Below are positions 13,911-39,342 of a stretch of DNA of 64,000 bases, in pieces (positions within the stretch are counted from its first letter, which is position 1; each line of letters starts with the position of its first letter). The notes beneath the pieces were generated by a model. That model saw nothing but the letters and a program-made list of their open reading frames with translations. It was not told where the DNA came from and ran no database searches. The stretch comes from Hydrotalea flava. GTDB taxonomy: Bacteria > Bacteroidota > Bacteroidia > Chitinophagales > Chitinophagaceae. The stretch covers positions 124,001 through 188,000 of the forward strand of contig NZ_LUHG01000100.1 of assembly GCF_001623405.1 (NCBI RefSeq), in the 5' to 3' direction. The position numbers and the translations under genes are program-made.

Positions 13911-15452
13911 ATGAATGTAGCACCCGCAATACAGGTTCAACATTTACAAATAAAACAATATGGTAAAACCATTTTGCAGGATGTGTTTTTTACTTTAAAT
14001 AGTGGTGAGCATTTGTTGATTACCGGTGCTGCAGGTGCAGGAAAAACGACATTGGGAAAAGCCATTGCAGGAAAAATTTTTTACAAAGGAAGCATTGACA
14101 TTAACAATAGCAATCATACACCTGAACAGGCACAAATTGTAATGATTGAAGATACGCATCGGTGGAAAAATTTAACCAACCAATCACAATTTTATTACCA
14201 GCAACGCTTCAATAGTTGCGATGCAACAGACAGCATTACTGTTGAAGCCGATTTACTGCAACATTTGCAACAATTTGGTATTTCAGATACAGAAGCACTG
14301 TATTTAAATTATTGCCAACAATTTAATTTACTGCACCGCTTACAAACACCACTTATTCAATTATCGAATGGTGAACAAAAAAAACTGCAAATTATTAAAG
14401 CACTGCTGCAGCAACCGCAGTTATTGATTGCAGATAATATTATGACCGGATTAGATGTTGCAGCCAAAGAAACCCTGTTACAAATATTGCAACACCTGAG
14501 CAGAAATGGAACTACACTGATTTTTATTACTTCCGGAACACTTTGGCCCGATGTTATTACGCATGTATTAACACTTGAATTGAACGGAATTTATGCGTTT
14601 TTAAAAAAATCTGAATACCAAATTAAAAATACATATACTACACCGTTACCCAGATTTATGAATGCAACAAAGCCAATTGAAAAACAGACAGCTTTGGCGC
14701 ATTCAATGATTGAAATAAAAAATACCACCATTCAATATGGTTCAAAAAAAATATTGGATAATATTAACTGGCAGGTTCATAGTGGCGAAAAATGGCTGAT
14801 TCAAGGACATAATGGTGCCGGCAAATCAACTTTATTAAGCCTAATAACAGGAGATAATCCACAGGCCTATGCCAATCAAATTAAAATATTTGGAAAACAA
14901 AGAGGCAAGGGTGAAAGCATTTGGGATATTAAAAAAAGAATTGGCTACATCTCTCCGGAATTACATAAATATTTTGACACAGATATATCCGTTGAAAAAA
15001 CCATAGCATCGGGCTTTTTTGATACAATGGGTGTATATAAAAAGCTAACGGATGATCAGCAAATTGCAATAAGCGCAATTATGCAACAGTTTCATCTGAA
15101 CGAATACAGCCAACAAAAACTGGGTGCATTGTCATTGGGTTTACAACGCTGGGTATTATTGGCAAGAGCATTGGTAAAAAATCCGCCTTTATTGATTTTA
15201 GATGAACCCTGTCAGGGATTGGATGAAGCACACATTCAACATTTCCTGTCAACCATACAACAAATTGTAGCAACCAATCACACCACTTTAATCTATGTTA
15301 CACATGTTGAAAATGAAATTCCTGAAGGAATTGATTTTGTGTTACAGCTACAGCAAGGCAAACAATTCATTCATCAACATATAGCTGGCAAAGTATCAAC
15401 TTCAACAAAGCAACCAGAAACGCTTGAATCCATCATCGGTGAAAACAATTAA
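13911..15452 (+). CDS. Tandem ABC ATPase, ModF-like, with a degenerate first nucleotide-binding domain
   Basis: 513 residues with two fused ABC ATPase domains and no membrane segment. Domain 1: Walker A GAAGAGKTT (39-47), signature LSNGEQ (151-156), Walker B LLIADN (171-176). The usual catalytic Glu is N176 and the H-loop His is S208, so this half is probably non-hydrolytic. Domain 2: Walker A GHNGAGKST (299-307), signature LSLGLQ (407-412), Walker B LLILDEP (427-433) with catalytic E432 and an intact H-loop (VTH). The arrangement resembles ModF/PhrA-type proteins, whose role is poorly defined. It sits between leuA and leuB, 1 nt after leuA and 10 nt before leuB. A link to leucine synthesis is suggested only by this position. 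Confidence 0.82.
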   Translation: MNVAPAIQVQHLQIKQYGKTILQDVFFTLNSGEHLLITGAAGAGKTTLGKAIAGKIFYKGSIDINNSNHTPEQAQIVMIEDTHRWKNLTNQSQFYYQQRFNSCDATDSITVEADLLQHLQQFGISDTEALYLNYCQQFNLLHRLQTPLIQLSNGEQKKLQIIKALLQQPQLLIADNIMTGLDVAAKETLLQILQHLSRNGTTLIFITSGTLWPDVITHVLTLELNGIYAFLKKSEYQIKNTYTTPLPRFMNATKPIEKQTALAHSMIEIKNTTIQYGSKKILDNINWQVHSGEKWLIQGHNGAGKSTLLSLITGDNPQAYANQIKIFGKQRGKGESIWDIKKRIGYISPELHKYFDTDISVEKTIASGFFDTMGVYKKLTDDQQIAISAIMQQFHLNEYSQQKLGALSLGLQRWVLLARALVKNPPLLILDEPCQGLDEAHIQHFLSTIQQIVATNHTTLIYVTHVENEIPEGIDFVLQLQQGKQFIHQHIAGKVSTSTKQPETLESIIGENN

Positions 15453-15462
15453 AACGGAATGT

Positions 15463-16581
15463 ATGAAAAAAAATATAGTTATTATAAATGGAGACGGAAT
15501 TGGCCCTGAAGTAACTGCACAGGCTGTTCGTGTATTACAAGCTATTGCAGAAAAATTTAACCATGAATGGCATTTTACCGAATGTTTAATGGGAGCAATA
15601 GCCATCGATAAAACAGGGGATCCTTTACCCGATGCAACGATTGAAGCCTGTTTAAACAGTGATGGAATTTTATTTGGTGCAATTGGTGATCCTAAGTATG
15701 ATAATAATCCCTCAGCAACCGTTCGTCCTGAACAGGGTTTATTGAAATTAAGAAAAGCATTACAGTTGTTTGCAAATGTGCGCCCTGTTACAACGTACCC
15801 GTCTTTACATTATCTGTCACCCTTAAAAGAAAAACAATTACAAAACGTTGACTTTGTAATTTACCGCGAATTAACAGGTGGTATTTATTTTGGAAAAAAA
15901 GAATTAAACGAGGAAAAAACTCAGGCTATTGACGAATGTATTTATACAACAAATGAAATAGAACGCATTGCCCACATTGCATTTAAAGCTGCAGAACAAA
16001 GAAGAAAAAAATTAACATTGGTTGACAAAGCAAATGTGCTGGAAACATCAAGGCTTTGGAGAAAAGTAGTGCAAGATGTTGCTAAAAATTATCCGGAAGT
16101 AGAGGTGAACTATTTATTTGTAGATAACGCTGCTATGCAGATCATCCTTAATCCTTCGCAGTTTGATGTAATACTTACAGAAAATATGTTTGGCGATATT
16201 TTAAGTGATGAAGCAAGTGTGTTAAGTGGTTCTTTAGGTTTATTACCCTCAGCTTCGTTCGGGCTAAGTATTGCATTATTTGAACCGATTCATGGCTCCT
16301 ATCCTCAGGCTGCAGGAAAAGATATAGCCAATCCACTCGGTGCTATTCTTTCTGCTGCAATGATGTTAGACTATTTTGATTTACCCAATGAAGCAGCCAT
16401 CATTCGCGCTGGTGTTAGTTGGACACTCAATAACAAATTTGTTACAAAAGATATAGATCCAATTAATTTTTATTTCACATCAACGATAGGAGAATTAATA
16501 TGCGATTTTATTGCAAGCAATAACAATTTTGAAGACATCAATCATAAAAATATTGAGTTGCGCAAGTCTACCATTATTTAA
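15463..16581 (+). CDS. leuB: 3-isopropylmalate dehydrogenase
   Basis: 372 residues from the ATG at 15463. An in-frame TTG 39 nt upstream lies inside the ABC gene and is not preferred. The enzyme oxidatively decarboxylates 3-isopropylmalate to 2-oxoisocaproate with NAD. The conserved start IVIINGDGIGPEV, the substrate-binding RPEQGLLKLRKAL and YRELTGGIYFG segments, the VDKANVLETS motif, the metal-binding NMFGDILSDEAS and the nucleotide-binding EPIHGSYPQAAGKDIANP are all present. Upstream genes are leuA and the ABC ATPase. The stop TAA overlaps an ATG (TAATG) whose frame runs into the ilv leader. Confidence 0.95.
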   Translation: MKKNIVIINGDGIGPEVTAQAVRVLQAIAEKFNHEWHFTECLMGAIAIDKTGDPLPDATIEACLNSDGILFGAIGDPKYDNNPSATVRPEQGLLKLRKALQLFANVRPVTTYPSLHYLSPLKEKQLQNVDFVIYRELTGGIYFGKKELNEEKTQAIDECIYTTNEIERIAHIAFKAAEQRRKKLTLVDKANVLETSRLWRKVVQDVAKNYPEVEVNYLFVDNAAMQIILNPSQFDVILTENMFGDILSDEASVLSGSLGLLPSASFGLSIALFEPIHGSYPQAAGKDIANPLGAILSAAMMLDYFDLPNEAAIIRAGVSWTLNNKFVTKDIDPINFYFTSTIGELICDFIASNNNFEDINHKNIELRKSTII

Positions 16582-16610
16582 TGCCAACTTGTTCAACTCA
16601 AAAAAAGTTC

Positions 16611-16641
16611 TTTGTTCTTAAGCATACAACAGGTATATTTG
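16611..16641 (+). promoter_or_regulatory. Internal promoter of the ilv section
   Basis: TTTG (16611-16614), a 19-nt spacer and TATATTTG (16634-16641) match both parts of the Bacteroidota promoter (-33 TTG, -7 TAnnTTTG) with good spacing. Transcription would start near 16648, about 30 nt before the leader ATG at 16678 and upstream of the attenuator. Confidence 0.65.
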
Positions 16642-16677
16642 TTCTAAACACAAAAACGTTGAAGAACAAATTTTATA

Positions 16678-16757
16678 ATGCAATTTTTTTTCGTCTGTTT
16701 GTATTAACAGCAGCGATAGTTATTGTCATTATTCTGCCTGTCTTTAGAGGGGGGTAA
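16678..16757 (+). CDS. ilv leader peptide rich in Ile/Val/Leu (reading frame interrupted at an 8-T tract)
   Basis: The frame ending at TAA 16755-16757 encodes LFVLTAAIVIVIILPVF followed by RGG. It contains seven consecutive Ile/Val/Leu codons at 16716-16736, which resembles ilv operon leader peptides. The natural-looking ATG at 16678 is in another frame and stops at 16705-16707 after nine residues. One extra T in the T8 tract (16684-16691), or a -1 slip there, would join it to the BCAA-rich frame as a 26-residue peptide. The only in-frame ATG is at 16581, overlapping the leuB stop, which gives 58 residues; an in-frame TTG is at 16659. The start is therefore unresolved, but codon content and position before a terminator make the leader role likely. 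Confidence 0.65.
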
Positions 16758-16798
16758 GTTGATTTGTTCTAACCTATAAACAAATTTGACCCGTCTCT
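16746..16798 (+). promoter_or_regulatory. Antiterminator arms of the ilv attenuator
   Basis: AGAGGGGGGT (16746-16755), the last codons of the leader, can pair with ACCCGTCTCT (16789-16798): eight Watson-Crick pairs, one G-T and one mismatch. The second arm contains the whole 5' side of the following terminator stem, so the two structures exclude each other. A ribosome stalled at the Ile/Val/Leu run would leave the first arm free (read-through). A ribosome at the stop codon would cover it (termination). Confidence 0.65.
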
Positions 16799-16816
16799 AA
16801 AAATGGCGGGTTTTTT
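16789..16816 (+). terminator. Attenuator terminator before ilvE
   Basis: ACCCGTC (16789-16795) pairs with GGCGGGT (16805-16811): 7 bp with one T-G wobble and a 9-nt loop, followed by T to 16816. It ends 24 nt before the ilvE ATG, where a simple intergenic terminator would block the rest of the pathway. That fits attenuation. Confidence 0.8.
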
Positions 16817-16840
16817 ATTTCATACAACAAAAACAAACAC

Positions 16841-17746
16841 ATGTATTACAACGAAAATACTTTTATTTATTTAAATGGCAGCTATGTAAAAGCAGCCGAT
16901 GCAACTACAGATTTATATGGCCAGACATTGCATTATGGTTATGGTGTTTTTGAGGGAATACGCTCTTATAAAACAATTGCAGGCACAACAAAAATATTTA
17001 AGCCCGAAGCCCATTTTCATCGGTTACAACAATCTGCAAAAGCACTAAATCTGCCTTATCATTATACTGTTGAAGAATTAATTGAAGCCACATATAAAGT
17101 GTTGGCACTAAATGAATTGCAAGACGCATATATACGTCCGTTAGTATATGCACCTGCCAATATGAGCTTTGTACAAAATACTACTTCATATATTGTTATT
17201 GAAGCTTGGAAAATGGAACCATTTTTAGGTGATAAAATGTTACGGGTGGTAACATCTTCTTTTGAAAGACCTAATCCTAAAGCCTTTCACATTCATGCCA
17301 AAGCAACCGGCCATTATGTAAATTCCATCTTAGCCAGTCAGGAGGCAAAGCAAAAAGGATACGATGAAGCCTTGTTATTAGATATACATGGTTATGTTGC
17401 AGAAGCGCCTGGCGCAAATGTTTTTTTTGAAAAGAACGGCACCCTCTTTACACCAAAATTGGGAAATATTTTACCCGGTATAACCCGTGCAACCGTATTG
17501 GAATTGTGCAACGAATTAAACATTCCGGTGAAAGAAATACAATTTAAAATTGAAGATATGTACCATGCAGATGCGGCTTTTTTCTGCGGAACTGCTGCCG
17601 AAGTGATTGGTATTGCATCATTAGATGATAAGCCCTTTGTAAAACCCTGGGCCGAAACAATCAGCAAACTCATTCAAACTTCTTATAAAAACTTAATTAC
17701 TGAAAACAAAAGAACACTTTTAAACGAAGTGTTAGGAACCGAATAA
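16841..17746 (+). CDS. ilvE: Branched-chain amino acid aminotransferase
   Basis: 301 residues. A fold-type IV PLP enzyme that transfers the amino group between glutamate and the 2-oxo acids of Val, Leu and Ile, the last step of all three pathways. [14 protein letters not shown] (about 30-43) is the family N-terminal motif. The PLP-binding Lys lies in [11 protein letters not shown] (near residue 154), and [13 protein letters not shown] follows around 186-198. [12 protein letters not shown] binds the cofactor phosphate. It is the first gene after the attenuator. The glutamate donor would come from gltBD encoded downstream. Confidence 0.93.
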
Positions 17747-39147: not shown

Positions 39148-39201
39148 ATGATTAACTCCATCATTTACATATTTTCTACCACCACTACTACTACCCTGTA
39201 A
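39148..39201 (+). CDS. thr operon leader peptide (Thr/Ile-rich)
   Basis: A 17-codon open frame, MINSIIYIFSTTTTTTL, with six consecutive Thr codons (ACC ACC ACT ACT ACT ACC) and four Ile codons, ending 141 nt before thrA. This composition parallels the thrL leader of enterobacteria, where ribosome stalling at Thr/Ile codons relieves termination. TACCCT-GTAA-AGGGTA (39192-39207) forms a 6-bp hairpin across the last codons and the stop. A downstream terminator is weak: only TTCTT-CAAA-AAGAA followed by TTTATTTT near 39248-39270. The peptide call is strong on codon content; the termination step is unclear. Confidence 0.72.
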   Translation: MINSIIYIFSTTTTTTL

Positions 39202-39342
39202 AGGGTAACATTATTTTATATTACACATTGGGCATTTTCGCTGTTTTCTTCAAAAAGAATTTATTTTAACAAAGTTAATACTAGTAGGCAAATTGAAATG
39301 TATATTTTAAAAAATAATTATTATATAAAATAATTTAAATTT

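Follow-up and report, generated by a model that had tools for sequence, protein, structure and literature searches.

The stretch of DNA analysed here, called the window, comprises 64,000 nucleotides of Hydrotalea flava and carries a leu-ilv locus in which, according to the ORF list of the window, leuA (12749), an ABC ATPase gene (13911) and leuB (end 16581) are followed by a gap of 259 bases and then by ilvE-ilvD-ilvB-ilvH-ilvC-ilvA. The gene names follow a reading of the translations, and ilvD was additionally identified by NCBIfam TIGR00110. The gene between leuA and leuB (13911-15452) reads in translation as a double ABC ATPase, and leuC and leuD were not seen adjoining leuA or leuB in the window. 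The leuB-ilvE gap contains a putative Bacteroidetes-type promoter, a leader frame and a terminator (Table 1), and the gene order places the switch behind leuAB, in control of ilv only.

Table 1. Features of the leuB-ilvE gap and of the first gene behind it (positions in the window).
Feature	Position	Strand	Sequence or description	Basis or remark
Putative promoter, Bacteroidetes-type	16611-16641	+	TTTG (16611-16614), 19 nt, TATATTTG (16634-16641)	
Leader ORF, TTG start, 32 codons + TAA	16659-16757	+	MKNKFYNAIFFRLFVLTAAIVIVIILPVFRGG (TTG read as M)	
Regulatory codon run	16716-16736	+	ATA GTT ATT GTC ATT ATT CTG (I V I V I I L)	Matches family IIIVVVIII run
Spacer, last run codon to arm	16737-16745	+	9 nt	12 nt in most relatives
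Segment 2, arm at the end of the leader ORF	16746-16755	+	AGAGGGGGGT, overlapping the stop codon	GGAGG/AGAGG core near-invariant in family alignment
Segment 3	16789-16798	+	ACCCGTCTCT, common to antiterminator and terminator	Sequence, folding, alignment
Segment 4 and U-tract	16805-16816	+	GGCGGGT TTTTT, 3' half of intrinsic terminator	Sequence, helix conservation
ilvE (branched-chain aminotransferase)	16841-17746	+	First gene behind the switch; ilvD, ilvB, ilvH, ilvC, ilvA after it	ORF list

The conservation of this arrangement was evaluated in Chitinophagaceae. When 59 genomes were searched with ilvE, the element was found directly before ilvE at the window locus and at ten others among the 15 best loci (L001-L011); L012 and L015 had no element before ilvE, none was seen in the 118 nt available before the contig end in L013, and L014 showed at most another form of it. 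The covariance model R1 was built from the 11 loci L001-L011 and describes the arm and spacer, segments 3 and 4 and the U-tract, with no peptide included. R1 matched 178 of 294 Chitinophagaceae genomes at E <= 0.01, distributed over 75 of 101 genera, and 154 of the 249 genomes of good quality. Sixty-one non-training matches, taken from the better-scoring ones, were opened (n = 72 together with the training set), and an in-frame leader with an Ile/Val run (approximately IIIVVVIII-P-A-x-x-GGG) was present in all 61 and in 72/72 overall, with ilvE or ilvD after the element in 60 and 71, respectively. The conserved leader frame and codons that the preliminary description had proposed to look for in related gaps were found in leuB-ilvE or leuB-ilvD gaps. 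The nearest gene behind the element was ilvE in 54 and ilvD in 17 of the 72 loci, and leuB lay upstream in 67. In the 61st match (L079/L102), the next gene is a frame of 98 residues, presumably an acetolactate synthase small subunit from the way it reads. Ten loci from further named genomes yielded the element in nine cases; three of these loci (L181, L182 and L185) were the already counted L002, L003 and L034, and the new ones carried it in six of seven, namely in Chitinophaga qingshengii, C. fulva, C. varians, C. eiseniae (DSM 22224, L189), C. niabensis and Terrimonas pollutisoli, with the uncultured Chitinophagaceae bacterium of L183 being the one without it. The ilvD of another member of the family (G017) was also without the element. 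The conservation of leader and element across the family argues that the element is not a product of chance.

The reading frame of the leader differs from the one first proposed. The start implied by the preliminary description, ATG 16678, belongs to a different frame from the run and is closed by a TAA at 16705-16707. In the frame of the run no ATG lies close by, and the frame extends upstream without a stop past TTG 16659; at the position of this codon (16659-16661), TTG is found in the same-genus genomes G001 and G003 and GTG in G002, and an ATG lies close by and in frame in most of the family, so that TTG 16659 was taken as the start, from which the leader is probably translated. ATG is the start in 69 of the 72 leaders, a count in which the script enters L003 as ATG though TTG is also present there. 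A frameshift at the eight T's (16684-16691), by which ATG 16678 would be connected with the run, was rejected, as the relatives begin at TTG, GTG or ATG in the run's own frame. The frame closes with AGA GGG GGG TAA, and its stop codon (16755-16757) is at the place given for it previously. Summarized by eye, the common leader of the family is approximately M-L-x-x-R-I-N-N-V-I-x-x-x-x-A-I-I-I-V-V-V-I-I-I-P-A-x-H-G-G-G. The leader frame of the window is also open from ATG 16581 (16581-16757), which overlaps the stop codon of leuB (TAATG), and this overlap could couple translation of the leader to that of leuB on read-through RNA.

The codon run lies exactly where it had been described, at 16716-16736. 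It had been called an Ile/Val/Leu run, of which Ile and Val were borne out and Leu proved to be hardly present; the ten codons ending at the run in the 72 leaders comprised 376 Ile, 263 Val and 22 Leu among 720 residues. As Ile and Val dominate the run, the codon composition suggests that the switch should read Ile and Val and hardly sense Leu, in keeping with its location between leuAB and the ilv genes. Among the valine codons of the run, those that are rare in the neighbourhood are favoured, GTC accounting for 79 of 263 compared with 238 of 3310 in neighbouring genes; over 70 loci, GTC was observed 74 times vs. 18.5 expected and GTG 133 times vs. 72.9 expected. In eight genes of the window, GTC makes up 3 of 283 Val codons. 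The Ile codon of the run was ATT in 338 of 376 cases. The use of rare Val codons might make the response sharper, or it might be maintained for the sake of RNA structure.

The arm at the end of the leader frame (AGAGGGGGGT) and the terminator were likewise located where first reported, the latter as ACCCGTC (16789-16795) and GGCGGGT (16805-16811) followed by a U-tract to 16816, and the dual pairing claimed for segment 3 was recovered, since the arm at 16746-16755 pairs with 16789-16798 at nine of ten positions (one G-G mismatch and one G-U). The terminator had been missed by a terminator scan with a loop limit of 8, the loop here being 9. A terminator lies between the leader and the first structural gene, with U-tracts in the family alignment. 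Its helix was paired in 92.7% of cells over 70 distinct sequences, with five of nine pairs changed on both sides and 0 of 500 shuffles as good. The antiterminator was paired in 95.8% of cells within the family, with 0 pairs showing double changes, which is attributed to the near-invariance of the arm. Covarying arms, proposed earlier as a check, were therefore obtained for the terminator within the family and for the antiterminator between families (see below), and not for the antiterminator within the family. A Shine-Dalgarno/anti-Shine-Dalgarno role for GGAGG/CCTCC was set aside, because other families use other arms. The window copy is degenerate: it lacks an ATG, its run is mixed (IVIVIIL), and its terminator (-12.2 vs. 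a median of -18.1) is the weakest among the 72, on account of which the copy may be leaky.

The distance between run and arm was found to be narrowly constrained. It was 12 nt in 59 and 9 nt in 13 of the 72 leaders, as measured from the last run of two or more to the model-placed arm by a script that accepts only spacers of 6 nt or more and stop codons close to the arm. A simpler measurement, based on the longest run and a motif-searched arm, gave 12 nt in 57 leaders and 9 nt in 12, with 24, 15 and 27 nt once each. The stop codon lies 0-21 nt after the start of the arm in 72/72 leaders. The leading edge of a ribosome lies some 12 nt downstream of the A-site codon's first base, and the gap between run and arm is similar to the stretch that a ribosome covers. 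With a spacer close to this distance, a ribosome starved at the last codon of the run would just free the arm, and one at the stop would cover it.

The preliminary description had also assigned ilvE a promoter of its own, and a conserved match of the Bacteroidetes type makes this probable. The sequence TAnnTT[TC]G was found at most 75 nt before the leader start in 53/72 leaders (8.0 ± 2.7 in shuffles, maximum 15), with its end 15-20 nt before the start codon in 46 of those 53, and TT[TG] lay 17-22 nt before this box in 51/72 leaders (2.0 ± 1.3 in shuffles, maximum 5). Promoters of this type have a -33 element ahead of the box, and by their usual distance from promoter to RNA start the RNA of the window would begin at about 16646-16648. 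A sigma-70 promoter scan was discarded as unsuited to the phylum. The sequence TAnnTTTG is the -7 box of Bacteroidetes promoters (PMC9723704).

The two folds that had been proposed for 16640-16840 were evaluated by computation. Without masking, the antiterminator was the minimum, at -50.8 kcal/mol, compared with -33.5 ± 3.9 for 200 shuffles (z -4.4, 0 as good). When the arm was hidden, as by a ribosome at the stop, the antiterminator (mean pairing 0.88, with the terminator at 0.00) gave way to the terminator (0.78), in line with the expected exchange. In RNAs ending at segment 3, the arm was paired with segment 3 (probability > 0.5) in 69/72 leaders with no ribosome, in 72/72 with a ribosome stalled at the last codon of the run and in 0/72 with a ribosome at the stop, where the arm is covered by construction; a ribosome at the stop covers it in all 72 because the stop falls so soon after the start of the arm. 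In the full-length RNA at equilibrium, the antiterminator exceeded the terminator in only four of 72 leaders with a stalled ribosome (L001, L063, L070 and L092) and, with no ribosome, only in the window. As the terminator mostly wins at equilibrium, the choice must be kinetic, with the switch acting during transcription, and since segment 4 is made last, this preference does not speak against the mechanism. A protector hairpin was predicted for few leaders, the arm being paired upstream (probability > 0.5) in only three of the 72 ilv leaders. No general protector hairpin is predicted on this ground, so that an untranslated leader should read through.

Leaders of comparable design were found outside the family. 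A class-wide scan with R1 gave a match in 76 of 295 genomes at E <= 0.01, with only family members below 1e-6. Seven of the non-family matches were opened; six were rejected as plain gene-end terminators and one (L106) was a thrA leader. The own form of R1 therefore looks limited to Chitinophagaceae. Six of 12 non-family ilvD loci, from six different families of the class, nevertheless have a terminator behind an Ile/Val leader; their arms are different, and their run-to-arm spacers measure 7-14 nt. These six were selected by eye, the criterion being an Ile/Val frame with a hairpin and a T-run behind it, and five weaker ilvD matches were left out. In L164, two leader-like frames with hairpins, MKNQTLYIIIIIQTL and MKISIITAVIIIHLPA, each ending at a stop, stand in tandem before the gene preceding ilvD and perhaps form a double attenuator. 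Within Chitinophagaceae, the arms of Chitinophaga (GGAGGATAGG / CCTTCCTCC / GAGGAAGG) differ from those of most others (GGAGGTGG / CCCGCCTCC / GAGGCGGG). The fit between arm and strand was assessed by exchanging arms among eight leaders (the six non-family ones, the window and one Chitinophaga, with L186 in place of L009). The arms bound their own strand with a mean of -15.0 kcal/mol and swapped strands with -9.7, the own strand was best in five of eight rows and six of eight columns, and the natural assignment was the single lowest of 40,320 permutations. The result was weaker with shortened strands (95 of 40,320; own -10.5, other -7.7). An earlier exchange among six ilv leaders, in which L164 and L169 were left without a script-detected terminator, gave 27 of 20,000; 18 his leaders alone were poorly separated (own -9.5, other -8.7; 192 of 20,000).

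Leaders before other amino acid genes were also inspected. Of 39 relatives, 22 yielded hisG, and a His-codon run, stop and terminator were present at 18 of the 19 hisG loci tried, that of the own genome included, with arms such as GTAAGC/GCTTAC/GTAAGC. In the own genome (L124, contig C50), the His leader MNLNNVYMHHHTLPTL ends at a stop before hisG and is accompanied by GTAAGC / GCTTAC / GTAAGC and a U-tract. In L106, from another family, a thrA-type gene stands behind the leader MTINNTIITTIITTGIKDGGR (ending at a stop) and a terminator of the GGAGG design (GGAGGAAG / CCTTCCTCC / GAGGAAGG), which by its sequence is a putative Thr/Ile attenuator built like the ilv element. The his and thrA leaders of like build suggest that leader-peptide attenuation looks to be a common device here. 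The window itself has a leader, MINSIIYIFSTTTTTTL (ending at a stop), at 39148-39250 before thrA (start 39343). Its stop codon (39199-39201) lies within the loop of the hairpin ACCC-TGTAA-AGGGT, which is followed by ...TATATTA...GGGC....GCTG and then by more than 100 nt to thrA; no U-tract terminator was seen between hairpin and thrA. Thirteen of 19 thrA loci, the window included, are alike by eye, their joint fold shows only the stop-codon hairpin, and a script found a Thr-rich ATG frame ending at the hairpin stop in five of the 13. This thrA leader seems not to be a terminator switch of the classic type.

The observed anatomy, conservation, alternative pairings, spacer and promoter match of the ilv element are very probably those of a ribosome-mediated transcription attenuator, through which ilvE-ilvD-ilvB-ilvH-ilvC-ilvA would respond to charged tRNA-Ile and tRNA-Val. 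Ribosome stalling, termination in the cell and the response to amino acids would then be connected as follows. The RNA would begin at the promoter or arrive from leuB, and a ribosome would initiate at TTG 16659. If Ile- or Val-tRNA were short, the ribosome would stall within the run with its leading edge at or before 16746, leaving the arm free to pair with segment 3 while segment 4 is still to be transcribed; RNA polymerase would then continue into ilvE. If the tRNAs were charged, the ribosome would reach TAA 16755 and cover the arm, segment 3 would pair with segment 4 and transcription would stop at 16811-16816. The interpretation given in the preliminary description thus appears supported in its main points by sequence comparison, with the start corrected, sensing assigned to Ile and Val and a default-on design predicted.

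Other explanations were weighed against attenuation by the ribosome. The strongly hydrophobic and conserved leader peptide would suit a real small membrane peptide, with the hairpin as the ordinary terminator of its gene or of leuB and the ilvE promoter elsewhere, but this would leave unexplained the fixed spacer of 9 or 12 nt, the agreement between arm and terminator strand from family to family, the placement before branched-chain amino acid genes and the like-built Thr and His leaders before thrA (L106) and hisG. Moreover, no Pfam or NCBIfam family exceeded its cut-off for the three leaders tried, and this explanation is considered highly improbable. Even less credence is given to a riboswitch, a T-box or a leader bound by protein, working independently of translation. 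Such devices would likewise show a terminator and alternative folds of the RNA, but no Rfam 15 family scored above threshold for the window's gap or for four relatives (L006, L008, L186 and L190), the nearest leaders being Trp_leader (13.1 bits, window) and Phe_leader (26.6 bits, L190), with cut-offs of 41 and 55, respectively, and what is conserved is a reading frame with the product's codons and no structured aptamer.

It has also to be asked where translation begins and what an untranslated leader does. Translation from ATG 16581, as a 58-residue frame coupled to leuB and with the leu operon promoter as the main one, agrees with the long frame that is open down to the run in the window; such a frame is, however, absent among the best three frames listed for each of G001, G002 and G003, and a promoter with conserved spacing lies inside it, which makes this explanation very unlikely, if slightly less so than a membrane peptide. 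A classic enteric design of three hairpins, in which a protector hairpin would make the untranslated leader terminate, has rather more in its favour, as the codons of the run can self-fold and, by eye, a GAUG that follows the arm seems capable of pairing with the CAU codons in the his leaders. The folding predictions, in which the arm pairs upstream in three of the ilv leaders and with segment 3 in 69 without a ribosome, nonetheless argue against it, and it is held to be unlikely. Attenuation by a ribosome that starts at TTG 16659 remains the preferred reading, and a more specific form of it is put forward tentatively, at somewhat below an even chance. The model is that of a two-stem, default-on attenuator in Bacteroidota, which would read through without a ribosome and would terminate only when a closely following ribosome sits on the leader stop. 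In such a device, the spacer between control codons and arm, which measures 9 or 12 nt in Chitinophagaceae and 7-14 nt in the six other families, would be held close to the footprint of a ribosome. If true, the ilv switches, together with the related his ones, would mean tight coupling of transcription and translation in a phylum that initiates translation without Shine-Dalgarno pairing.

The leader switch most likely turns on isoleucine and valine synthesis only when those amino acids run short. Leader-peptide attenuation of ilv would be a standing device in Chitinophagaceae (75 of 101 genera), found also with other arms in six further families of the class, and the results point to a family of leader genes of about 30 residues that the covariance model finds. 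As a leader-peptide switch needs a ribosome keeping pace with RNA polymerase, transcription-translation coupling in Bacteroidota becomes directly testable.

The principle of attenuation is textbook knowledge, and the Bacteroidota version was unmatched in the RNA and protein-family libraries checked. The enterobacterial leaders of ilvGMEDA (ilvL) and ilvBN (ivbL) are attenuators that resemble it in a leader peptide rich in branched-chain codons, a mutually exclusive antiterminator and terminator and the ilv genes behind. They differ in that Leu codons are prominent in the enteric leaders, whereas the run here is Ile/Val with hardly any Leu, and in that the window has a TTG start and an internal Bacteroidetes-type promoter between leuB and ilvE. 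The protector hairpin of the enteric trp and ilv leaders has no predicted counterpart here. The earlier proposal that the logic of enteric ilvGMEDA works at this locus is supported, as far as sequence can tell, in the conserved leader and both pairings; the element departs from the enteric design in the protector (1:2) hairpin, which is not predicted. In the open-access literature searched, no recognisable description of a Bacteroidota ilv attenuator was found; the 2010 survey of Lopatovskaya, Seliverstov and Lyubetsky, which by its title is said to be a comparative search for attenuators of bacterial amino-acid operons, lies outside that scope.

In 2010 the authors of one study stated that, ermC aside, they knew of no demonstrated leader-peptide system beyond Proteobacteria and Actinobacteria (PMC2965389). 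Leader-like sORFs have been mentioned in B. thetaiotaomicron (PMC7366714). In the same phylum, 'strong clues' for leader-peptide attenuation before amino-acid operons were reported in Flavobacterium psychrophilum, where conserved 5' elements are named before pheA and hisG and where ilv has 0 occurrences in the main text (PMC9723704). The ilvB-II motif, or ilvBNC uORF, reported from Corynebacterium with 103 representatives, is similar in its uORF enriched in branched-chain amino acid codons and in its antiterminator/terminator switch, and differs in belonging to another phylum, in having another structure and in standing before ilvB (PMC10272879). Compared with ribosome-mediated attenuators in general, the leader codon run, the terminator and the strand-sharing antiterminator are all present here, as judged from the computed structures and the comparison of relatives.
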